A stretch of 19,146 bases of DNA, from assembly GCA_030040115.1 (NCBI GenBank), contig JASHUH010000527.1, positions 1 to 19,146 of the forward strand, read 5' to 3'. Position 1 is the first letter of the stretch, and each line of letters begins with the position of its first letter. Below, piece by piece: positions 1-19,146 of the stretch. The position numbers were made by a program, and so were the translations under genes. The notes beneath the pieces are model-generated. The model was not told the DNA's origin, ran no database searches, and saw only the letters and a program-made list of their open reading frames with translations. Source of the stretch: Acidobacteriaceae bacterium. Its GTDB lineage: Bacteria; Acidobacteriota; Terriglobia; Terriglobales; Acidobacteriaceae.

Positions 1-2054
1 ATATAGACATCGCTATAGGCATAGTTCAAATCGAGACCGAAGTGTTCGTTCGGGAACAGGTCCGTTGCCACGCTCACGAACCGGCTATGATCCGTATGAT
101 CCAGCGGGCCGGCGTACGCAACGTTGGCGGCCGTCAAATCGGCCGGACTCAGGTTGTTGGTGTTGTTGTGCCGTTCGCGGTCCGTAAAGGCGCCTGAAAC
201 CGTCGCCCACGCCTTCGGTCTGTAAATGGTGTGCACCCGGTACTCGCGCAATTGCCTGAAGCCCATCGGCGTAAGCGCGTTGTCGTTGTACATCGCTTCG
301 ACGGAGCCGTTGATATCCCAATTGTTGGTGGGGCGCAGGAAGGCGTTCACGATCGCGCCGTCTCCGTTGATGTCGACGATGGTGGGTGTCCAGGTGGCCG
401 GGGCGGTGCTGGTCGCGTACGCGTAGGCGGTCTGATTGATGTCATGCAAGCTGTGGCGATAGGTGAGAGCGAACGTGGCACGGGAGGTGGCGTCCCAGCT
501 CAGCGTGAAGTTATTCTCCACAGACTTCTGGCCGAAGTATTGCGGCAAGGGCAAGCCGATGTCGCCGCTGCCTTCAAAGGTCGACGCGCCCGCCGCGCTG
601 GTGTTCAATGTTGTCGGACTGTTGATCGTTTCGTTGCCCGCAGCCGTACCCGTCAGCAACGTGGTCAAGCCGTTCATGGTCGTCGTTCCCGGCTGATGAG
701 TATTCGAGAAAGTCACCTGCTCTTCGAGGCTCACCCGGTTGCTGAACTGCCATACGGCGCCAAAATCGGCGGCGATCACTTCGCGTTTGGCGCTGCCCGC
801 AGCCGTGTATACGAGTCCGGTGGTCGCCCCGCTCGTGCTGGCCGTTGTCAATCCCTGGAAGCTCTCGTAATAGGCCGGCATATTCATGTTGGCGTTGGTG
901 TACCGCACGTCGCCGTTCAAGGCCAGGTTTTTGATGCTCGAACTCTGCACCCGGAAGATCTCCGTCGGAAAGAGAATGCGCGTCGGCGCCGAACGGGAAT
1001 AGTTGGTCACTACCGCGCAAGCCGGGTTCACCACCGGCATGCCGCCGGCCATGGTCGAGGCCGACAGCATCGGATTGCCGCTCATGCTGTTGGCGTTGCA
1101 CGAGCTGCTCGTGTAGGGCGTTAGGGTAAAGTAACTCGCCAACAGCGCCGCCGGGGTTCCGTCCGCCTCCTGCACATTGAACGCGCCCGGCGCGAGGTTG
1201 AAGTAAGAGTTCACCTTCTCATGGTCGATCTCCTCTTCATACGTCAGCCGCGTGTTCCGCACCGGCTTCCAATCGATCCCGCCCAGGAAATTGTCGCCGC
1301 TGTTGCGCTGGAACTCTTCGACGATATTGGAGTACGAGCCGCCGAATGAATAGCCGCTCGGCGTCAGGCTCGGCCCCTGAAAAACATCCTGTGAGTAGCT
1401 GAACCGGTACGTCACTTTCGCCAGCGGCGCCGCGGTCAAATTCACGTTGGTCATGCGGCGCACAGTATTAAACAGGAATGGGGATTGATCGATCTGCGCG
1501 TAGGGCAGCGCGCCCGTCGGCGCGCTTGCCGGCCCGATGGGCATGGTTTGCCCTGAAGGAATGTTCGGGTTGCCCAGCAGATCATAATCCATATATTGGC
1601 GGTCGCGGCGGAACATTCCCGAGAAGTCGTAGACCTTGCCCTTCTGAAAATCCAGCCGGGCGAAATCGTTGGGATCGCCGCCAAATCCGCTGCTTACCGC
1701 ATTGAGCACATCGAACGGCCCGCTTTCATTTCCGGGATTGGCGCGCATTTCGAAGGTCTGATTCAGCACCCGTGGTCCGGACTGCAGATTCACCAGCGTG
1801 TCGTACATCGGAGCGCCGCCGTTGATGTTGGCGATGCGGCCGCCCAGGTCCACCGACTGGTGGATCGTGTAGCCGGTGGGAACGCTCATTTCCGGCGTCG
1901 CCCCCGGCGCAGCGGGCGCGGCGGGAGTTTGCGCAGCGGCGAGGCCCGCGATCAGCGCCAGGATAGCCGCCCCGGCGCACGCACTGAGACGCCGAACCAT
2001 TGCGGGCGAGCCATGTTGCTTCGAAAGCTTTGAATGCCAGACTGTCATGTTCAT
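1..2054 (-). CDS. mtrB: MtrB/PioB-family decaheme-associated outer-membrane beta-barrel protein (3' end cut by window edge)
   Basis: About 684 residues are visible and the frame is still open at base 1, so the C-terminus is missing. The start at 2054 is chosen because a GAGG Shine-Dalgarno (complement of 2061-2064) sits 6 nt upstream; a later Met at 2000 has none. Residues about 19-41 form a signal peptide ending in Ala-Ala-Ala-Gln, followed by a Pro/Ala-rich linker. The rest alternates aromatic and polar residues as in outer-membrane barrels, with many Tyr/Asn/Arg-rich strands, and the last visible strands read LFPNEHFGLDLNYAYSD, typical of this family. MtrB/PioB barrels hold a decaheme cytochrome inside the outer membrane so that electrons can cross it. 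The gene directly upstream encodes that cytochrome. The N-terminal Cys-X-X-Cys of Shewanella MtrB is absent. The family call rests on my reading of the translation plus context; I am fairly sure. Confidence 0.82.
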   Translation of the reverse strand, partial: MNMTVWHSKLSKQHGSPAMVRRLSACAGAAILALIAGLAAAQTPAAPAAPGATPEMSVPTGYTIHQSVDLGGRIANINGGAPMYDTLVNLQSGPRVLNQTFEMRANPGNESGPFDVLNAVSSGFGGDPNDFARLDFQKGKVYDFSGMFRRDRQYMDYDLLGNPNIPSGQTMPIGPASAPTGALPYAQIDQSPFLFNTVRRMTNVNLTAAPLAKVTYRFSYSQDVFQGPSLTPSGYSFGGSYSNIVEEFQRNSGDNFLGGIDWKPVRNTRLTYEEEIDHEKVNSYFNLAPGAFNVQEADGTPAALLASYFTLTPYTSSSCNANSMSGNPMLSASTMAGGMPVVNPACAVVTNYSRSAPTRILFPTEIFRVQSSSIKNLALNGDVRYTNANMNMPAYYESFQGLTTASTSGATTGLVYTAAGSAKREVIAADFGAVWQFSNRVSLEEQVTFSNTHQPGTTTMNGLTTLLTGTAAGNETINSPTTLNTSAAGASTFEGSGDIGLPLPQYFGQKSVENNFTLSWDATSRATFALTYRHSLHDINQTAYAYATSTAPATWTPTIVDINGDGAIVNAFLRPTNNWDINGSVEAMYNDNALTPMGFRQLREYRVHTIYRPKAWATVSGAFTDRERHNNTNNLSPADLTAANVAYAGPLDHTDHSRFVSVATDLFPNEHFGLDLNYAYSDVY

Positions 2055-2133
2055 ATGAAGCCTCACTTGAAAACCGCTTCTTCCCTAAACCCCCAAACCT
2101 TGCTTCAAAGACCTGCCGCCCGGCCCGCGCCGC

Positions 2134-2162
2134 CGTCCGGGCAGGACTGAGCGGCCCGGACG
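2134..2162 (-). promoter_or_regulatory. Intercistronic hairpin between the decaheme cytochrome and the barrel gene
   Basis: A perfect 9-bp inverted repeat (CGTCCGGGC / GCCCGGACG, arms 2134-2142 and 2154-2162) with an 11-nt loop lies 7 nt after the cytochrome stop codon. No U-tract follows on the minus strand, so it is not a classical intrinsic terminator. It could protect the cytochrome mRNA 3' end or reduce read-through into the barrel gene, giving unequal amounts of the two proteins. The structure is seen in the sequence; the role is inferred. Confidence 0.55.
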
Positions 2163-2169
2163 TTGACAG

Positions 2170-3207
2170 CTACCTCAGAAACGCTTGGTCAATGTTGGAA
2201 CCGTGAATGTAGGTGTGGCAGCTCGTGCACGGCGCCAACTCATCCGATCCCGCGCCCATGCCGTGAATCGTCGCGTTCGCCACCCGGCTATGGCACTGGT
2301 TGCAGAGATTGTTGATGCTGGCCAGGTTCAGCAACCGCGGATTCTGCGAACCATGCGGCGTGTGGCAAGCCAAGCACCCTTCCGCCTTGACCGGCGCGTG
2401 CTCGTACACAAACGGCCCGCGCACGTCGGTGTGGCACTTGGTGCAGATCATGTTCTGATCCGCCGTGCTCCGCAGATTGTTGGGGCCGAATGTGCCGTGT
2501 ACATCATGGCAATCGGAGCACTGCACCAGGCCTTCATTCACCCGGTGATGAATGGGCATGTTGAACTGCGCCCGCTCGCTGTTGTGGCACTGGTAGCAGA
2601 GCGTGGGCTCCGGCCCTTTGAGCAGCTCATCCTTGGCCTCGGGGCTGTGCACGTCGCTGGTGGTGCCCATCAGGTGCAATTCCGCCGCCTGCAAGGGAGT
2701 GCGTGCCTCGGAACCGTGAATGCTGTGGCAGCTAATGCAGCTCAGGCCCGCTTTGGCGTGGGGCGAGCGCTCAAAATTGGGGTGGGTTCCAGCGTGGCAT
2801 TTCAAACAGGTGTCGTTCACCTGCTTTGCCGAGCCCTTCAAAGGATCGAAGATTTTGCTCACGTCGCCGCCGCCGGCCACGTGGTCGGCGCCCGGTCCAT
2901 GGCAGTTTTCGCAGGTGATGCCGTTGTCACCGTGCATGAACGCCATCTTGGTGTGCGGATTGGTGGCGAACTTCTTGCTCACCTCGTCATGGCAGGTGGC
3001 GCATGTGTCGGAGCCCACGTAATTCGAGGGCTGAACCGCCTTCGCCGCCGCGGGGTTGGCCGGCTTGTCGCTCTTGGGAGGAGCGGCCAGGGCGGTGGCG
3101 CAGATCATGCCCGCGCCCAAAATCAACATCCAACTCGCTCGCAGTCCCGGCCAAATCCCCGGAGCCGCACCGATCGGCAATCGCGTTACAGGCCCACTCG
3201 TATGCAT
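2170..3207 (-). CDS. mtrA: Periplasmic decaheme c-type cytochrome, MtrA/DmsE/PioA family
   Basis: This 345-residue protein has exactly ten CXXCH heme-binding motifs, at residues 69, 99, 134, 157, 204, 230, 255, 278, 302 and 327. That count and the length agree with MtrA/DmsE/PioA cytochromes (about 330 residues, ten hemes). Residues about 22-42 form a hydrophobic signal segment ending in Ala-Leu-Ala-Ala, so the protein is exported for heme attachment in the periplasm. The C-terminus, CHTYIHGSN, is typical of the family. In known systems this cytochrome is a heme wire inserted in an MtrB/PioB barrel; it takes electrons from periplasmic or inner-membrane carriers and passes them out, or inwards in iron oxidisers. 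The barrel gene is next downstream (115 bp). The Shine-Dalgarno at this start is weak. Alternative: a DmsE-like subunit for an external terminal reductase. Confidence 0.92.
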   Translation of the reverse strand: MHTSGPVTRLPIGAAPGIWPGLRASWMLILGAGMICATALAAPPKSDKPANPAAAKAVQPSNYVGSDTCATCHDEVSKKFATNPHTKMAFMHGDNGITCENCHGPGADHVAGGGDVSKIFDPLKGSAKQVNDTCLKCHAGTHPNFERSPHAKAGLSCISCHSIHGSEARTPLQAAELHLMGTTSDVHSPEAKDELLKGPEPTLCYQCHNSERAQFNMPIHHRVNEGLVQCSDCHDVHGTFGPNNLRSTADQNMICTKCHTDVRGPFVYEHAPVKAEGCLACHTPHGSQNPRLLNLASINNLCNQCHSRVANATIHGMGAGSDELAPCTSCHTYIHGSNIDQAFLR

Positions 3208-3408: not shown

Positions 3409-3422
3409 GTGATGTTCATCAC
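3409..3422. promoter_or_regulatory. CRP/FNR-type operator
   Basis: GTGATGTTCATCAC is a palindrome with 5-bp arms. With flanking bases it matches 9 of 10 informative positions of TGTGA-N6-TCACA, and it also resembles the FNR box TTGAT-N4-ATCAA. It lies about 200 nt upstream of the cytochrome start in the divergent region next to a Crp/Fnr gene whose recognition helix has the CRP-like Arg-Glu-X3-Arg pattern. Confidence 0.6.
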
Positions 3423-3499: not shown

Positions 3500-3513
3500 G
3501 TGAGCGCAGTCAC
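3500..3513. promoter_or_regulatory. CRP-type operator
   Basis: GTGAGCGCAGTCAC has GTGA/TCAC arms with a 6-bp centre, followed by ATCC as at the 3572 site. It matches 9 of 10 informative bases of the CRP consensus. It is centred 91 bp from the operator at 3409 and 72 bp from the one at 3572. Confidence 0.55.
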
Positions 3514-3571: not shown

Positions 3572-3585
3572 GTGAGGCCCATCAC
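3572..3585. promoter_or_regulatory. CRP-type operator
   Basis: GTGAGGCCCATCAC has GTGA/TCAC arms with a 6-bp centre and matches 9 of 10 informative bases of the CRP consensus. Its right half, CATCACATC, is identical to that of the site at 3409. It lies about 157 nt upstream of the regulator's start and could serve autoregulation. Confidence 0.55.
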
Positions 3586-3742: not shown

Positions 3743-4495
3743 ATGGCGAACACAGAAATTTCTTCGGATGGGCATGCCCGGACCGCACACCTGGGTCGCC
3801 AGGCGCCGGTGGGTTGCGCCGCCTGCTCCAACCGCCGTCCCGGGTGGTTCTGTTCCCTGGGCAGCGCCGTTCTAGCCGATCTCGAGTTGGCCACCAGCAC
3901 CATCTCTCTGCCCGCGCAGGCAGCGCTGTTTACCCAGGGCGAGGAAGCCCGCTGCCTCTACCTCATCTGCGGCGGCTATCTTAAGCTCACCGCCGGCCGG
4001 CCCGACGATCACCAGATGATCGTCCGCGTCGCCGGTCCCGGCTCCATGCTCGGCCTGTACGCCGTTCTCTCCCACGGCGTTTACGAAGTTTCGGCGGAAT
4101 CCCTGACCACCGCCCAATTGCGCCCCGTCGAGCGGGAGCGGTTCCTCACCTTCCTGCGCAGCCATAAAGAGGCGCAAATGCGCGCCGTGCAGTGCATCTG
4201 CCAGGAGTATCGCTTCGCTTTGCAGGACGCCTGCCGCATCGCCCTCTCTGAAACCGTGGCCACGCGCCTCGGCCGGCTGCTACTTGAACTCGCCCATCAA
4301 ATCGGTGAACGCACCGAAGGCGGCGAATTCCACTTTCCCCTCCTCCTCACCCACGAGGAGATGGCCTCCATGACCTGCACCACCCGCGAAACCGTGACCC
4401 GCACTCTGGGTCAGTTCCGGAAGGAAGGCTGGATCGCGATCGAGGAGTCTCTTGTCACCCTCCGTCAGCCCGAACGGCTGCAAAGCCTCCTCTAG
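3743..4495 (+). CDS. Crp/Fnr-family transcriptional regulator with N-terminal cysteine cluster
   Basis: The start at 3743 gives a 250-residue protein, normal for the family, with GAAGG 7 nt upstream; an in-frame ATG at 3635 or 3443 would add an unusual N-terminal tail. Residues 25-37 hold Cys-X2-Cys-X8-Cys. Residues about 45-150 form the cyclic-nucleotide-binding-like beta-roll (FTQGEEARCLYLICGGYLKL, with extra Cys71 and Cys76). A long dimerisation helix follows, then a winged helix-turn-helix near residues 190-225 with recognition helix TTRETVTRTLGQF. Arg-Glu-Thr-Val-X-Arg corresponds to the DNA-contacting Arg180, Glu181 and Arg185 of E. coli CRP. The Cys cluster is like the Fe-S ligands of FNR but more widely spaced (FNR has CX2CX5C), so iron-sulfur or thiol redox sensing is possible, not shown. 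It is divergent from the electron-conduit genes with CRP-type sites between them and probably controls them. Confidence 0.88.
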   Translation: MANTEISSDGHARTAHLGRQAPVGCAACSNRRPGWFCSLGSAVLADLELATSTISLPAQAALFTQGEEARCLYLICGGYLKLTAGRPDDHQMIVRVAGPGSMLGLYAVLSHGVYEVSAESLTTAQLRPVERERFLTFLRSHKEAQMRAVQCICQEYRFALQDACRIALSETVATRLGRLLLELAHQIGERTEGGEFHFPLLLTHEEMASMTCTTRETVTRTLGQFRKEGWIAIEESLVTLRQPERLQSLL

Positions 4496-7643: not shown

Positions 7644-8900
7644 CTAGACCAGCCACAAAAACTGTTCGCGCTGGAGCCGCGCGCCCGGAAACACCATTTC
7701 CAGGTTCTCCGCGCCCAGCGTGCGCGTCACCAATTCGCCCAAAACCGCGCGATAGTCGGTGGTCAACGCCAGGTCCCGTCCCTGGTTGAGCTGCGCGTTG
7801 CCCAGCCCCGGCCAGCGCCCGTACACTTTTCCGCCCTTCACCTGCCCGCCCAGCACAAACATCGCATTGGCGTGGCCGTGATCGGTGCCGCCGGTTCCAT
7901 TCTCGTGCGCGGTGCGGCCAAACTCCGACATGGTCGCCAGCGTCACGTTCTCCGCCTGGTCGCCCAAGTCGCGCCAGAACGCCGCAAGACTGGCCGAGAA
8001 GTCGCTGAGCCGGTTGGCAAGCTGCCCGTTCACGCCGCCCTGGTTCACGTGCGTGTCCCAGCCGGTCACGTCGGTAAACGCGGCCTCCACGCCCAGGTTG
8101 GCCTTGAGCAGTTGCGCAATTTGCCGCATGCTGGCGCCGAATTCGCTGTTGGGATAATTGGCTCCGGCCGCAGGCGCGTACTGCGCCGGATCGGCGGCGC
8201 GCAGCATCTTCACGGCCTCGAAGGTCTCGTCGCCCGCGGCATGAAAAATGCGGTCGCCCGAGTCGGCGTACATGGCTTCAAAGGCTTCGGCGGCCGGCGA
8301 CGGCGCGGGCCCGCGCCCAGCCACGGTGAACCCATTCACATTGTTCAGCGCAATGGCGGAGATTTTTCCGGCCAGCGTCAGCGGGACCTCGGCGCCCAAC
8401 GCCAGCGCGCGGAACGCCGTATGCTCCTCGTCGTGCCCCATGCGATGGCACGCGTCCTCGGCCTGCAGGGCGCGATTCAGCCAACCATCGCTCGTGTTCT
8501 TTATGCCCGGCGTGCCCGATTCCATATAGTCCTGCGCATCGAAATGAGAGCGGCTCATATCCGGCGAGCCGGCAGCGTGGACAATCGCCAGATGGCCCTG
8601 ATCGTAGAGCGGCTTGAAGGGGGTGAGCGATGGATGCAGCCCAAAGAAGCCGTCCAGATCGATCACCTGTTTTTGCGGAATGGCGATCGTGGGACGCATC
8701 GCGTAATAGTTCTTCTCGCGATAAGGAACCACCACATTGAGCCCGTCAGCCGCGCCCCGCTGAAAAATCACGACCAGCCGTTGCCCGGGCGCGCCCTCCG
8801 CTTCGGCCAGCACCGAGCGGACCAGGAAATTGGGCAGCGCCGCCGTGCCGGCCACGGCCAGCGCGCCCCGGTGCAGAAAGAATCGACGGGTGAGGACCAT
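7644..8900 (-). CDS. Tat-exported DUF1501 domain protein
   Basis: The start at 8900 is well set: GAGGAG lies about 7 nt upstream and the protein opens with a twin-arginine signal, TRRFFLHRGALAVAG (Arg5-Arg6, hydrophobic 12-32). The 418 residues match the DUF1501 family: LVVIFQRGAADGLNVVVPY (42-60), SRSHFDAQDYMESG (116-129), SEFGRT (about 325) and TDHGHAN (about 339). The His/Asp motifs resemble the metal-binding residues of the alkaline phosphatase/sulfatase superfamily, to which DUF1501 proteins are related; the substrate is unknown. It lies downstream of the DUF1800 gene on the same strand, the usual pairing of these two families, which suggests a shared process in the periplasm or at the cell surface. 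Export as a folded, probably metal-containing protein through Tat is inferred from the signal. Confidence 0.9.
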   Translation of the reverse strand: MVLTRRFFLHRGALAVAGTAALPNFLVRSVLAEAEGAPGQRLVVIFQRGAADGLNVVVPYREKNYYAMRPTIAIPQKQVIDLDGFFGLHPSLTPFKPLYDQGHLAIVHAAGSPDMSRSHFDAQDYMESGTPGIKNTSDGWLNRALQAEDACHRMGHDEEHTAFRALALGAEVPLTLAGKISAIALNNVNGFTVAGRGPAPSPAAEAFEAMYADSGDRIFHAAGDETFEAVKMLRAADPAQYAPAAGANYPNSEFGASMRQIAQLLKANLGVEAAFTDVTGWDTHVNQGGVNGQLANRLSDFSASLAAFWRDLGDQAENVTLATMSEFGRTAHENGTGGTDHGHANAMFVLGGQVKGGKVYGRWPGLGNAQLNQGRDLALTTDYRAVLGELVTRTLGAENLEMVFPGARLQREQFLWLV

Positions 8901-8953
8901 CAGGATCTCCTCTCTTCGCGCGCAATTTCCCTTTCCAGAAAAAGCGTGACTCC

Positions 8954-9241
8954 TTACTGCGAAATGCGGTGCAGGATGGCGTCCACGCCGTTTTCGCGGG
9001 GAGCTCTTTGCGGCAAGCACCAGCACGAGTCGTCGATCTGGTGATGTTTGCCAATCGTCGGGACGATGTGCGGAGTTGAGCCGATATCCGGCTCGCCATC
9101 CACGTCCCTCAGCTCAAAAACGACCACCCATTTGCCTCGCTTTTTTTCGTCTCTGCTGGGCGCATAGAATTTTCGCGCCCGCCCGCTCTCGGACGCGCGC
9201 CTGCATTCGGGCGGGAGTAAACCTTGAAAACGAGAGTTCAT
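8954..9241 (-). CDS. Small CWC-motif protein of unknown function
   Basis: This 95-residue frame lies between the DUF1800 and DUF1501 genes on the same strand. An AGAGGAG Shine-Dalgarno 5-6 nt before the ATG at 9241 supports translation. The C-terminal half reads HIVPTIGKHHQIDDSCWC and ends with a further His (residue 91). Conserved His plus Cys-Trp-Cys suggests a small metal-binding or structural motif; I recall similar short HxVP...H...CWCxP hypothetical proteins but cannot name a family. No signal peptide or membrane segment is seen. The frame is open upstream to an ATG at 9358 that overlaps the DUF1800 stop (ATGA), so a 134-residue form coupled to DUF1800 is an alternative. Confidence 0.6.
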   Translation of the reverse strand: MNSRFQGLLPPECRRASESGRARKFYAPSRDEKKRGKWVVVFELRDVDGEPDIGSTPHIVPTIGKHHQIDDSCWCLPQRAPRENGVDAILHRISQ

Positions 9242-9354
9242 GGCGTCTCCTCTGAATCCGCCTTGCATCCGTCCCCAGAATCTCAGTCTTGCCTTTTGGC
9301 CCAATCCGTGTTCTCCACCAAAGCGTTCCCCGTCTTCTCCAGTTCTTCTGGAAA

Positions 9355-11550
9355 TCATCGCCGCTGGAAATCCGGAGACCCGATCAGCAGTCCAGCCAGC
9401 AACTGGTCTTGGCGTTCGCGCGCTAAAACCGCCTGGCGGGAGTTGGCGCGAAGCATCGGCCGCCCGGCAAGAACCGGCCGCATCGCCGCGGATTCCTGCG
9501 CGCTCTGCCTTGCAAACTCATCCAGCGCCGCCGCCCGTGTCGTCGCGCTTGCCCCGCCGGGAAGCAGCAGCGGCTCCAGCCGCGCCTCTTCGCTCTGCGC
9601 GGTGGGAATCCCTTCGTCGGCCGCCGTTGTGTCCGCCGTCTGCGGCTGCCATTGCACGGTGATTCCGGGCAGGCGATTGGCCGACAGGTTTAGCGCAAAA
9701 TTCATCCGGTCCACCAGCGCGCCCGTCGAAACCCAGGTGGCCGCATCCCAACGATAACCGCTGGGCGGAATGCATTCGTAGAGTGGCATGCCCATGGCCC
9801 GCACCGCGTTCACCAGGGGCATGTAATTCTCCACATTGGCGTCGCTCGCCCGCACCGCCGAAACCACAAATTCAATCGGCGTCTTCACCTTGGCGCGGTA
9901 AGCATCTTTCGACCAGAACTCGGGCGAGCGAAACAGCGTGGTCAGCACCGTGGAAATATCGCCGCCGCTGGCCATGTATGTCTTCGCCATGCGATCAACA
10001 ATCGATTGTGGCGGGTTATCGCTCACAAACCGCTCCGCCAGCTCCCGGGAAAGGAAATGCGCCGTGGCCGGCCGCGTGGCCAGCATGTGCAGCAGCTCGC
10101 GGCCCTCCATTTCGCCGTTCCCCTTGATCTTCTTGCCCAAAACCTTCTTCGTCCCCGGCTCATGACGGTTGGGATTGAAGACATATCCGCCGCCGAACTG
10201 CGGCCGATCGACCGTCCAGCCGGTCAACACCCGCGCCACCTGGATCACGTCCGCCTGCGTATAGCCGCCGTTCACGCCCAGCGTGTGCAGCTCCATCAGC
10301 TCCCGCGCATAGTTCTCGTTGATGCCCGGCGGATCCTGGCGCTGCTTCGCCGGCCGCCGCCACGCCGCCATTTTGGCGCGCTCCGCCGCCAGCGAATCCG
10401 GACCCACGCTCTCCGCGTTATCGAGATACAGCAGCATGGCCGGGCTGTGCGCCACAGCTTCCAGCAGGTCCTCGAATTTTCCCAGCGCGCGCGGACGAAC
10501 CGCATCCCGCTCGAAGCTCACCAGGTAATACGGCATCTGCTCGTTTTTGCGCAGGTAGATGTTGAAGTGGTTGAGCCAGAAGTCGGTCATCACTTCCTGG
10601 AGTTGTGCATTCGAGTAGATATCGCGCGTCAGCCGCTCGGCCATCAGCTCTTGCACCACCAGGCGTTCGGGATTTTCGAGGTCGTCCACAGCCTCCCTGA
10701 GCGCGGGAACCATATCGGCGGTGAGTTTGGCGCGCTGGGCAGGCCGCAGCGATTTCAGAAAGTCCTCGAATTCCGCCGGCCGCATGGCTTCCAGCTTCAG
10801 CACGCGCTGCTCGGGCGTTAACCCCAGGATTGCGTCACTAGCCGGATCGTCGTCCAGGGCGTCCATCTGCGCCGCCAGCGCCATCGCCTGCGGATCGTCA
10901 GGAACCGGCGCGGCGGCGCTCGCGACGCCGCCGGAGTTCGCGTCCATTCCCGCGACGGGATTTGCCCCCATCGCCATCCCCGGATTTCCCTCCGCCCCGG
11001 GATCTTCACTCATCCCTCGCGCGCCGATCATGGTCGTTCCTTCGCCAGCCGGCGCAGCCGGGCTCGCGGACGCGCCCGCGTTCTTCTCCTTCTTTTCCGC
11101 TTGCCTCGCTTGCAAGCGGTAGATCGCATCTTCATAGACCGCGTGCAGCGCCCCCCGCCGCGGAATTTCGATTCTTCCCTTCATCGCCTGGCGCACAATG
11201 GCGTTCGAGGGAATGCGCAAAAGCAGGTCCTCGACGCTCCATTGCATGGCGGGATATTGCGCCAGACGCGCGTCCAGGTCCGCTTCATCGATGTTTGCTG
11301 GGTGCAGTTGCCGTTCGAACCACGCCTCCAATCCCATCGCGCGCACGGCCTCCACGTCGCCGGGCCGGGGTCCAAAAGTAAATCGGTCCAGCGCGTGGAG
11401 AATCCGCGCGTCTCCTTGCAGTTCGGGGGAGGAATACGAAGGGCGCGAGGCGGCAGCCGAATTCGCCGTCGGGGCAGGCCCCGCGGCCGCGGCCGGCATG
11501 CACAAATTCAAGCACAACACCACGGCGAGCGCGCCTCGCAGCGAATCCAT
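9355..11550 (-). CDS. DUF1800 domain protein, secreted
   Basis: The start at 11550 yields a signal peptide, MDSLRGALAVVLCLNLCMPAAAA, with GGAG about 9 nt upstream; an ATG at 11598 is possible but would put 16 residues before it. The 731-residue product has DUF1800 hallmarks: LDRFTFGPRPGDVEAVRAMG near the N-terminus, MTDFWLNHFNIYLRKNE, NENYARELMELHTLGVNGGY, VARVLTGW, and a C-terminal GSPDFQRR. The function of this family is not established; it is usually encoded with a DUF1501 protein, here about 450 bp downstream with a small gene between. Residues about 150-230 are an Ala/Gly/Met/Pro-rich low-complexity insertion that splits the domain and looks like a flexible linker. Periplasmic or outer-surface location is inferred from the signal peptide. 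Confidence 0.9.
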   Translation of the reverse strand: MDSLRGALAVVLCLNLCMPAAAAGPAPTANSAAASRPSYSSPELQGDARILHALDRFTFGPRPGDVEAVRAMGLEAWFERQLHPANIDEADLDARLAQYPAMQWSVEDLLLRIPSNAIVRQAMKGRIEIPRRGALHAVYEDAIYRLQARQAEKKEKNAGASASPAAPAGEGTTMIGARGMSEDPGAEGNPGMAMGANPVAGMDANSGGVASAAAPVPDDPQAMALAAQMDALDDDPASDAILGLTPEQRVLKLEAMRPAEFEDFLKSLRPAQRAKLTADMVPALREAVDDLENPERLVVQELMAERLTRDIYSNAQLQEVMTDFWLNHFNIYLRKNEQMPYYLVSFERDAVRPRALGKFEDLLEAVAHSPAMLLYLDNAESVGPDSLAAERAKMAAWRRPAKQRQDPPGINENYARELMELHTLGVNGGYTQADVIQVARVLTGWTVDRPQFGGGYVFNPNRHEPGTKKVLGKKIKGNGEMEGRELLHMLATRPATAHFLSRELAERFVSDNPPQSIVDRMAKTYMASGGDISTVLTTLFRSPEFWSKDAYRAKVKTPIEFVVSAVRASDANVENYMPLVNAVRAMGMPLYECIPPSGYRWDAATWVSTGALVDRMNFALNLSANRLPGITVQWQPQTADTTAADEGIPTAQSEEARLEPLLLPGGASATTRAAALDEFARQSAQESAAMRPVLAGRPMLRANSRQAVLARERQDQLLAGLLIGSPDFQRR

Positions 11551-11700
11551 GGAAGACGCTCCAGGCAGAAATGACCGGGGAAGAATCGCGCCACGCAATC
11601 TGGCTGATAGGGCAGACGCCGCTTTTCGGGAAAAGTTGCGCCTTCAATACATGCTTCCAGCAAAAGTAGCGCCGGGCTTGGCAGGGCGTTGCGGCTCCGA

Positions 11701-16243: not shown

Positions 16244-19146
16244 TCAGAACACCAGCCTCGCCGCGATTTCAATTTCCCGCGGCGTGTACAGGAATCCGCT
16301 GGAGTTGGAATTCGAGGGTATGCCCAGCGAGTTCTGCTTCGGGTACGACGGTCCCTGCCCGAGGTAGGTCAGAGTGCCACCCGAGTAGGAGTAAGCCGTG
16401 GTCCCCACCGCCGTGATGTTCTGGTGGTTGGCCACGTTAAACACGTTGCCCATGAGTTGCAGTGTGTAACCGTGCTCAAATTCGAGGTTCTTTTCGACGC
16501 GCATATCGTCGACCATCGTCCGCGGCTGGCGCGCGCTGTCGTAGCCGTACACCCCGGGAATGATCCCCAATCCGCCCGCGCCGTTGAAGTCGCTGTTCAG
16601 GGCGCCACTCAGCTTGCCGCTCCAGCTGGGCGTATAGGTCAGGCCGTTTTGCATCTGGAAGCTCTCGTTCAGGCTCCAGCCGTTCGCCACCCATTGCAGC
16701 GGATTGTCCGCGTGCATCTCCGGTAGATTATAGAGCGCGTAAGCCACGAACCGGTTGGGAATGTCCCACGTCGAATTGCCGTAGTTGAGCCGGTAATTTC
16801 CGTAAGGGTCATACCAGGCGTTGGTCGCGCCTTCGGTGTCGGCGTTCTGCGCAAAATCCAGCGCGTGCGACCACGTATAGTTGGCGTCGAAGGTCACGCG
16901 CTTGAGCGAGCGGTTTAGAACCTCCACCACCGCGGCGTTGTAGCTCGAGTTCACGTTGCTCGCCATCTCCGTGATGGAGCCAAAGTTGACGGCGTTCGGG
17001 CCCAATAGAGCCGTATTGCCGTAGCTGGTGTAGATATTGTTGATGGTCAGGTTGTTGGTTCCGGCCGGAATCGGCCCCATGCCCGAGGCGTCGGCTACGC
17101 TGATCGTCACCGATTCGCAGGCCGTCGGCGAAGCCGAACAGGGCGCCATGTTCACGTTGACGAAGTTCGGCAGCCGCCGCCCTTGCGAGCCGATGTAGCT
17201 CGCCGAAAGGTACGTTCCCTTACCCAGCGCCTGCTGCACCTGCATATCGAACTCCTGCACCTCGGGCAGCCTCAGGTTGGAAGAGAAAAAATAGGAGGTG
17301 GGTTTGGCGCCGCTGCTGCCGCTGGCAAAACGGCTCGGAAATTGCGGGCCCTCCGAAATTGTGGATGTTGGAGCGTTGTAAAAAGTGGGGCTGGTCTGCG
17401 CCGCCGGGCTTCCCGTGTCGAACAACACCTCCAGCAGATTGCCGTTGGTGATGCGTCCGAAGTACATGCCCCAGCCGCCGCGCAGCACCGTGTTCCCCCT
17501 GCCGAAGACATCGTACGCAAAGCCCACACGCGGCCCAACGTCCGCATTGTCGCTGGGGTGGTTCGTCAATCCCTGGTAAGGCGTAAAGCTGCCCACGGTC
17601 TGCGTAAACGCTGCGCTGGGTTGGGGCAGCAACTCGTGATCGTAGCGCAGACCCAGCTCCAGGGTCAGACGCGGTGAAAACTTCCAGTTGTCCTGCACAA
17701 ATTCGCCGGTGTCCATGGTCGAAAGGCCATACGTCGCCGCCCCGAATCCCTGGTAGAAATCCGCATAGCAAGGATAGGTCCCGACCACCGAACCCGCCTT
17801 GGCGGCGCTGCTGCCGTCGCCGTACTGGCCCGCGTACTCGGCGTAGTCTTTGTCGCATCCGGTTCCGGCCGTGGACGCTACTCCGTTTTTGAAGTTGAGA
17901 AGGTCGTTGATGTACAGGCCAAGATATCCGTAGCTGTAGTAGCCGTTGCCCTCGTACACGCTGTTCTGAAAATCGTTATTGTGCACGGCGTCCAGTCCGA
18001 ACCTGAAGCTGTGATTGCCCTTGTTCCAATAGAGAAGGTCGCCGATTTGCCATTTTCTCTCCGAAGGATAGGCGGGCCGGTACGAATAATATGGCGAGCC
18101 CGCATAGAATCCCCACCCCGACGATCCCTCGGCCACGCTCACCTCGGGAATGTTGCCGCTGTTGTTATTCAGGTCCGCCAACGTGTACGCGGTGTAAGGC
18201 TGCTGGTTTTCGTCCTCCAGTTCGCGGCCGTACTGATACAGCAGCTCGTTGCTGATGTTCGAGGTGATTAGACTGGTCAGCTTCGTCAGCCCGTAATCCA
18301 GCTTCACAAAGTCGTTGCCCTGCGTGTCGCGCGCGTAGAAATCGGTGGACGCGGTTTGCACGCCGCCCGGCGAATCCCAGCGCAGGCGATGGAAGAGCGC
18401 GCTCCAATGGTTTCTATCGTTGATCTGCCAATCCAGCTTGGGCGTGTTGATCTCCTGGTAGCCGAAGCGCGGCGCCGTGCCCACGTCGGAGCTCAAGCCA
18501 AGGTCCGCAATGGCGGTCGCGCCTGCATAATTGCCGATGGTCGTGCTGGCGCTGCCGTTGATCAGCGCCGCCCAGTCGTACGCCGCCTGCGTATAGCTGA
18601 TATTCTGTCGCGCCGCCAGCGTGCAAGCCTCCGCGTCCTGCACCGAGGTGTCCCCGGTCAGGTAGCCATTCTGATAGCTCACCGTCGGCGGCGTGCTCGA
18701 GCCGTTCAGATAGCAAATGGCGCCGCTCGGCAGCGTGGCCGCCGGCAAGGTGTAAAACTGCTGCGGGTTGTACGGAATACCCACGACCGGAAAGACGCGC
18801 GTGTGCTGGTCGTAGGTGTAGATCCAGAAAAGCTTGTTTTGCTTCAGCGCACCTCCTGCCGTGAAGCCGTAAATCTTGCGCAGGTCCTCGGGTTTGATGT
18901 GTTCCGTCTCACCGGCCGAATTCACCATCGTGGCGTAATCGTTGAACGCGGCCCAATTGCTCTCGCGATCGTAAAAGTACGCCTGCCCGTGAAGCTGGTT
19001 TGTCCCGCTCTTGGTCACCGAGGTGATCACGCCCCCCGCGGCGCGGCCGTATTCAGCCGAGTACACGCCGGTGTTTACGGCAAACTCGCGCACCGCGCTG
19101 CCTGAGGTCGAATACGCCTCCCGCGTGCGCCCGCGCTCTTCCGACC
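16244..19146 (-). CDS. TonB-dependent receptor, Oar-like outer-membrane protein (5' end cut by window edge)
   Basis: About 966 residues are visible and the frame is open to base 19146, so the N-terminus, probably a signal peptide and a carboxypeptidase-regulatory-like domain, lies outside. The visible part opens in the plug: REFAVNTGVYSAEYGRAAGG followed by VITSVTKSGTNQLHGQAYFY, the diagnostic plug motif of the large acidobacterial Oar-like receptors. The barrel follows, with repeated Trp/Tyr/Asn strands, LTLELGLRYDHE, PRVGFAYDVFGRGNTVLRGG and a C-terminus ending in EIEIAARLVF, an aromatic terminal residue as expected for BAM-dependent barrel assembly. Such receptors import large substrates, often glycans, siderophores or peptides, with TonB energy; the substrate here is unknown. 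No hydrolase or SusD gene is next to it in the window. Confidence 0.93.
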   Translation of the reverse strand, partial: SEERGRTREAYSTSGSAVREFAVNTGVYSAEYGRAAGGVITSVTKSGTNQLHGQAYFYDRESNWAAFNDYATMVNSAGETEHIKPEDLRKIYGFTAGGALKQNKLFWIYTYDQHTRVFPVVGIPYNPQQFYTLPAATLPSGAICYLNGSSTPPTVSYQNGYLTGDTSVQDAEACTLAARQNISYTQAAYDWAALINGSASTTIGNYAGATAIADLGLSSDVGTAPRFGYQEINTPKLDWQINDRNHWSALFHRLRWDSPGGVQTASTDFYARDTQGNDFVKLDYGLTKLTSLITSNISNELLYQYGRELEDENQQPYTAYTLADLNNNSGNIPEVSVAEGSSGWGFYAGSPYYSYRPAYPSERKWQIGDLLYWNKGNHSFRFGLDAVHNNDFQNSVYEGNGYYSYGYLGLYINDLLNFKNGVASTAGTGCDKDYAEYAGQYGDGSSAAKAGSVVGTYPCYADFYQGFGAATYGLSTMDTGEFVQDNWKFSPRLTLELGLRYDHELLPQPSAAFTQTVGSFTPYQGLTNHPSDNADVGPRVGFAYDVFGRGNTVLRGGWGMYFGRITNGNLLEVLFDTGSPAAQTSPTFYNAPTSTISEGPQFPSRFASGSSGAKPTSYFFSSNLRLPEVQEFDMQVQQALGKGTYLSASYIGSQGRRLPNFVNVNMAPCSASPTACESVTISVADASGMGPIPAGTNNLTINNIYTSYGNTALLGPNAVNFGSITEMASNVNSSYNAAVVEVLNRSLKRVTFDANYTWSHALDFAQNADTEGATNAWYDPYGNYRLNYGNSTWDIPNRFVAYALYNLPEMHADNPLQWVANGWSLNESFQMQNGLTYTPSWSGKLSGALNSDFNGAGGLGIIPGVYGYDSARQPRTMVDDMRVEKNLEFEHGYTLQLMGNVFNVANHQNITAVGTTAYSYSGGTLTYLGQGPSYPKQNSLGIPSNSNSSGFLYTPREIEIAARLVF

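Follow-up and report, generated by a model that had tools for sequence, protein, structure and literature searches.

Among known outer-membrane electron conduits, the closest to the system considered here are MtrAB, the core of Shewanella MtrCAB, and DmsEF, in both of which a decaheme cytochrome of the DmsE/MtrA family stands beside an outer-membrane barrel, together with PioAB and MtoAB, which pair a decaheme with a barrel and have no surface decaheme. Here we describe a related gene pair at the start of contig C364, which was analysed in its entirety (19,146 bases; 'the window') and whose nearest relatives are Acidobacteriaceae. We consider it likely that this locus is a trans-outer-membrane conduit that works like MtrAB, that its barrel belongs to a distinct, diverged lineage of the MtrB superfamily and that the conduit exports electrons taken from quinol. 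An earlier note on this DNA had proposed an MtrA/MtrB-type conduit in an acidobacterium; that is still the best reading, except that the barrel falls outside the named MtrB family. Like MtrAB (6R2Q) and DmsEF, the locus combines a DmsE/MtrA decaheme with a barrel of the same superfamily, which aligns end to end with acidobacterial MtrB. Unlike Shewanella MtrCAB, it has a barrel undetected by the models PF11854 and TIGR03509 and no MtrC-type match, and an ImcH-like protein would replace the quinol oxidase CymA. From PioAB and MtoAB, it differs in its barrel lineage and its linked ImcH-like protein.

Several elements of this picture have been published for Acidobacteriota. Acidobacterial decahemes in Arctic peat were noted in 2013, with iron reduction proposed (PMC3669403), and MtrB- and ExtB/E-like complexes were reported from a Holophaga genome in 2020 (PMC7399161). 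A 2018 survey of 24 genomes found mtrA/mtrB candidates in Granulicella, Terriglobus, Terracidiphilus and others (PMC5900883). In 2022, a search begun from PSI-BLAST described MtrCAB in Bryobacterales (Acidobacteriia); this Group 5 shares phylum, decaheme and barrel with the window system, and differs from it in having MtrC and a tetraheme cytochrome and, in the available excerpts, no nearby inner-membrane quinone oxidoreductase (PMC8805035). Eight decaheme–porin clusters were reported in 2026 from karst metagenome-assembled genomes (MAGs), six of them with ImcH or NapC/NirT-like proteins (PMC13264449). The group-2 clusters of that study resemble the window system, by description only, in their small decaheme, their porin of 25–36 strands and these inner-membrane proteins; they were found by heme and strand counts, and the parts available say nothing on barrel homology, pairing or regulation. 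The conduit idea, mtrA/mtrB candidates in the family and the decaheme–porin–ImcH arrangement are already published. The second barrel lineage, the fidelity between partners and the operators appear to be new: no description of them was found in the open-licence literature, supplements not covered.

The source genome is 4.1 Mb in length, in 649 contigs, and 84.7% complete. We take Acidobacterium and Acidicapsa to belong to the same family as this organism. Two genes, both on the minus strand, form the core of the locus:

2170 to 3207, minus strand: DmsE/MtrA-family decaheme c-type cytochrome (345 amino acids, exactly 10 CXXCH motifs, TIGR03508)
3 to 2054, minus strand: predicted divergent MtrB-superfamily outer-membrane barrel, N-terminal ~683 of ~868 amino acids, truncated by the contig start

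The decaheme scores 251.3 bits (E 9.9e-75) against TIGR03508, the DmsE family of NCBIfam, and passes the curated cut-off of 192.2; chance is excluded as the source of this sequence match, and the family and motif count given in the earlier note are borne out. Its best PDB sequence is 6r2q_A (E 1.9e-31), from an entry listed under another protein's name; 6R2Q is the MtrAB complex according to PMC10654088. Across 84 aligned decahemes, eight histidines outside the heme motifs are kept in at least 90% of rows and two more in 86%, a sequence pattern that matches what bis-His ligation would need. The N-terminus, read by eye, shows a hydrophobic stretch and an Ala-x-Ala cleavage-like site.

The barrel gene follows after 115 bases if it starts with the ATG at 2054, which is the likelier start because the match to P0001, a full-length relative (868 amino acids, 95% identical), begins there; a GTG at 2066 is also open. 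Its remaining end is on contig C300 of the same genome (L054:3-557), from residue 686 of the 868 in P0001. We infer that C364 and C300 adjoin because the genes are continuous in the relatives L001 and L002; contigs C460, C479 and C629 were rejected as the operon continuation. The window part of the barrel has no significant match in Pfam (best E 0.12), NCBIfam (none) or PDB sequences (best E 0.06), and P0001 matches nothing in NCBIfam, including TIGR03509 and the GSU2204 model. The earlier note had expected the full barrel to match MtrB/PioB profiles; neither the window part nor, in NCBIfam, P0001 does, which goes against that wording. Geobacter GSU2203 (OmcK)–GSU2204 is likewise distant: the decaheme reaches 210 bits with the GSU2203 model (NF041028; cut-off 325), and six of eight distant barrel members (see below) score 17–27 bits with the GSU2204 model, all below its curated cut-off of 350 (NF041027).

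The barrel has a large family of its own. Scoring of 8000 candidates gave at least 1722 homologues; none of the 120 listed has a Pfam domain, and where a source name exists it reads hypothetical protein. An alignment search in 297 Acidobacteriota genomes (G numbers) added distant members. A cytochrome with 10 or 11 CXXCH motifs adjoins the barrel in 27 of the 29 such loci examined (L088–L116); the two without one are L090, which lies at a contig end, and L115. Among ten distant relatives compared with Pfam, only L102 reaches PF11854, at 19.6 bits against a cut-off of 23.

These distant members connect the barrel to MtrB. Aligned with hhalign, the barrel profile that includes them (A3) matches a profile of MtrB from the same phylum (A4, built from PF11854 matches) with 99.7% probability, an E of 1e-25 for the single comparison and 602 aligned columns that run through to the C-terminus; earlier alignments of this kind gave 99.2–99.7%, and close and distant barrel members match each other at 100% (E 4e-53). 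LptD is, like MtrB, a 26-stranded barrel, and LptD controls from the same phylum (29 of 30 fetched open reading frames) reached only 1.3–3.5%. Reversed profiles gave 0.5–11% and a single TonB-type receptor sequence 0.3–5%, so that none of the three controls linked to the barrel profile. A hidden Markov model (HMM) of the L088–L116 set matches 6 of the 30 MtrB-set rows at 27–49 bits, and five reading frames (G015, G107, G125, G245 and G285) are matched by both PF11854 and A3. Taken together, the A3–A4 alignment, the controls and the doubly matched frames place the barrel, on profile evidence, in a divergent lineage of the MtrB superfamily that is homologous over the whole barrel and lies outside the named family. 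The MtrB/PioB-like barrel of the earlier note holds in this sense: superfamily kinship, through intermediates, stands, and membership of the named family does not.

At E 1e-3, A3 matches 81 of the 297 genomes, and in 59 of these the match reaches 1e-40 or better; PF11854 matches 71. In 8 of the 81, the A3 match falls in a frame also matched by PF11854. Decaheme and barrel travel together. A TIGR03508 match (E ≤ 1e-20) is present in 80 of the 81 A3 genomes compared with 75 of the 216 others, and within the window's family the barrel occurs in 14 of 15 genomes with a decaheme at that threshold and in 0 of 16 without one. The two barrel types also keep separate partners. At least 128 decahemes over the cut-off were tabulated; within 1 kb, 62 have only a PF11854 barrel, 37 only an A3 barrel and 7 both, the last being two tandem pairs and the five doubly matched frames. 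In a tree of 84 decahemes (counts leave out two outside rows), a single branch with support 97/95 divides the 56 new-barrel rows from the 26 partners of PF11854 barrels, and none of 500 label shuffles gave so low a value; L005 is included in the 56 by kinship, as only 273 bases of contig follow its decaheme. In G131 and G291, both kinds of pair stand in tandem on one contig, and the two decahemes of G131 (L061 and L109, the latter on a long branch) fall each in its own clade. Three further genomes (G009, G121 and G147) have the two kinds of pair on different contigs, with one decaheme in each clade.

Such fidelity is what a fitted cytochrome–barrel complex would predict, and shared ancestry of whole operons would give the same pattern. 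It also bears on a reading without a conduit, in which a periplasmic electron-storage cytochrome merely neighbours an unrelated porin. Although the barrel matches neither curated MtrB model and insertion of the cytochrome in it is a prediction, we regard this reading as very improbable, given how cleanly the decahemes separate by barrel type, the profile homology to MtrB against negative controls and the co-occurrence in all but one of the A3 genomes.

The genes downstream suggest where the electrons would come from. After the barrel end, C300 encodes two monoheme cytochromes c, then an ImcH-like cytochrome and then an RNB-domain ribonuclease. The ImcH-like protein (484 residues, NapC/NirT-type, PF03264 at 42 bits) has five CX2CH motifs and one atypical CX3CH (CGQSCH at residue 140). 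ImcH is described as having an atypical CX3CH beside a transmembrane helix, 5–9 CX2CH motifs and a NapC/NirT-like part; no mtrAB beside imcH is reported in the available portion of the same source (PMC6295460). At the N-terminus of the C300 protein, two segments pass the Kyte–Doolittle threshold and a third is seen by eye only (ImcH has three helices). We call the protein ImcH-like by these described features, not by alignment with Geobacter ImcH.

The same order recurs among relatives. In a set of 36 related loci (L numbers), 27 carry decaheme and barrel, with the barrel after the decaheme. The window group reads mnmG, DUF4440, a Crp-family gene on the opposite strand, decaheme, barrel, one or two cytochromes c, ImcH-like gene and RNB ribonuclease, with one or another of these genes missing from single loci. 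An ImcH-like gene is matched in 17 of the 27 paired loci, some of them cut by the locus end; 4 of the remaining 10 (L004, L008, L015 and L019) have only 0.9–2.2 kb of downstream sequence. The earlier note had suggested that a surface cytochrome might lie beyond base 1. There is none among the genes read after the barrel end on C300, and the OmcA/MtrC model (TIGR03507) has no match in the incomplete genome; the ImcH-like inner-membrane cytochrome is found there instead.

We propose that the ImcH-like cytochrome would oxidise quinol in the inner membrane, that one or both small periplasmic cytochromes c would pass the electrons to the decaheme, and that the decaheme, seated inside the barrel, would deliver them to an acceptor at the cell surface without an MtrC-type protein. 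The cytochrome c assembly family PF01578 is present in the genome. The finding of no surface cytochrome suggests direct contact or soluble acceptors, and the likeliest acceptors would be Fe(III) phases or humic quinones.

The same conduit could instead run inward, as in PioAB and MtoAB, and supply the quinone pool or an oxidase with electrons drawn from Fe(II) or another external donor. MtrC-less MtrAB homologues of Fe(II) oxidisers share the absence of an MtrC-type match (PMC8805035), the neighbouring monoheme cytochromes c recall MtoD, and 27 PioA/MtoA homologues have been counted in Acidobacteriia (PMC10654088). We nevertheless favour export because, in the sources at hand, ImcH, the family that the linked inner-membrane cytochrome resembles, has so far been implicated only in quinol oxidation (PMC6295460) and the iron metabolism reported for Acidobacterium and Acidicapsa strains is Fe(III) reduction, under low oxygen (PMC8790237). 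Inward flow seems unlikely on this evidence. A third use would be to feed a dedicated extracellular small-molecule reductase, as DmsEF feeds DmsAB, in place of minerals. The decaheme model that fits carries the DmsE name, and a conduit without its own surface cytochrome needs an outer partner or direct contact; however, no gene for a reductase of this kind was recognised next to decaheme and barrel, although not every open reading frame of every locus was annotated, and in ten related loci and on C300 an RNB ribonuclease is what comes next, as far as seen, behind the cytochromes. We think such a reductase quite improbable, and return to export onto minerals or humic matter as the preferred reading.

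A regulator and three palindromes lie upstream of the decaheme:

3743 to 4495 (start 3635 also possible), plus strand: Crp/Fnr-family regulator, divergent from the decaheme (PF13545, PF00027)
3409 to 3422, no strand assigned: GTGA-N6-TCAC palindrome, candidate Crp-family operator 1, 202 nt before the decaheme start
3500 to 3513, no strand assigned: GTGA-N6-TCAC palindrome, candidate operator 2
3572 to 3585, no strand assigned: GTGA-N6-TCAC palindrome, candidate operator 3

All three palindromes are perfect and lie in the stretch that separates the decaheme from the Crp-family gene. The window holds four such sites against 0.28 expected, and 0 of 200 shuffles had four. The regulator has RETVTR in its recognition-helix region, which we take to resemble the CRP helix that reads GTGA, and an N-terminal cysteine pattern (C-x2-C-x8-C) kept in 16 of 16 rows, all of them close relatives. 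An FNR-type box (TTGAT-N4-ATCAA) was considered and rejected, as its best instance has two mismatches and was matched by 42 of 500 shuffles; in the same comparison, the CRP-type site has one mismatch and was matched by 2 of 500.

The divergent Crp-family gene is kept in 15 of the 27 paired loci. Together with L005 and L006 (the latter from the same MAG as L002), these make 17 loci, every one of which carries one to three GTGA-N6-TCAC sites upstream of the decaheme. The stretches before the decaheme, 8,651 nt in total, hold 35 sites compared with 7 in the remaining ~250 kb of these loci, with the upstream stretch set by hand to ~400 nt for L001, L002, L004 and L016; in 15 of the 17, one site is 196–217 nt before the decaheme. 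Twelve paired loci are without this regulator, and a site is present within 500 nt in 8 of the 11 that have upstream sequence (L026 has none); in L020, another Crp-family gene (35% identical) is upstream on the same strand as the decaheme. The operator-like sites are conserved in sequence, and the divergent regulator may bind them and so control the conduit.

Several observations weigh against the conduit as proposed here. The window barrel part is unmatched by the MtrB/PioB models PF11854 and TIGR03509. The profile of the close barrel family (A2) alone reaches only 11.5% against MtrB, so that direct comparison was dropped for the profile with distant members, and the link to MtrB is transitive, through intermediates at ~20% identity; the HMM of the MtrB set matches none of the barrels. 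Neither barrel type is found within 1 kb of 22 of the 128 tabulated decahemes, for which contig ends or a third barrel type may account. An OmcA/MtrC match is lacking, as noted. Six paired loci (L011, L020, L021, L023, L027 and L029) have 4.1–6.4 kb of downstream sequence and no ImcH-like match, and in L015, L027 and L029 the 500 nt before the decaheme hold no operator-like site. In the part available of PMC5900883, incomplete operons were the reason given for judging that acidobacteria carrying mtrA/mtrB candidates do not reduce Fe(III) in the manner of Shewanella or Geobacter.

The operon described here is fuller than those of that survey and of another make, and its barrel family is present in more than a quarter of the genomes surveyed. 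More tentatively, and with slightly less than even confidence, we suggest that Acidobacteriota hold a second, separately evolving MtrAB-type line that is missed by the curated MtrB models. It would reach outside acceptors with no surface cytochrome and would be connected to ImcH and to a regulon of Crp type. Many soils and peats are rich in acidobacteria, and extracellular respiration by them is still debated. Acidobacteria of soil and peat may be capable of respiring minerals or humic matter beyond the cell; if so, such respiration would be common in soil acidobacteria considered plain heterotrophs, and gene-based censuses of extracellular electron transfer in soils would change. The decaheme–barrel pair is present in two named isolates, Granulicella paludicola (L027) and Bryocella elongata (L029), in which gene removal could be tried.

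Four loci (L022, L024, L025 and L026) show a second arrangement: behind the barrel come a fusion of a 13-heme cytochrome with cytochrome b, a cytochrome with 11 hemes and an ImcH-like gene; L022, L024 and L025 also have a separate cytochrome b match. The beginning of a 13-heme gene is visible at the contig end of L019, and L028 lacks the 13-heme gene but has those for the 11-heme cytochrome, cytochrome b and the ImcH-like protein. The fusion resembles quinone oxidoreductases of the CbcL/MtrH type, and two types of quinol oxidase would thus be linked to one conduit. Elsewhere in the window's own genome (L056; G000:C479:1-3137), a multiheme cytochrome with nine CXXCH motifs in the part present is beside cytochrome b (PF00033), a Rieske protein (PF00355) and a protein with a cyclic-nucleotide-binding domain.

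Eight barrel-like frames in other genomes contain one in-frame TGA (G101:C39, G058:C11, G144:C94, G262:C88, G294:C13, G078:C87, G228:C31 and G238:C6). The related GSU2204 family is named (seleno)protein in NCBIfam, a point also made in the available part of PMC13188914, and some of the TGA-bearing acidobacterial barrels may be selenoproteins.

Further along the window, a DUF1501 and DUF1800 protein pair is encoded at 7644–11598 (minus strand) and adjoins mnmG, as it also does in the relative L001. A large TonB-receptor-like outer-membrane barrel (PF25183, 325 bits) occupies 16244–19144 on the minus strand and is truncated by the contig end.

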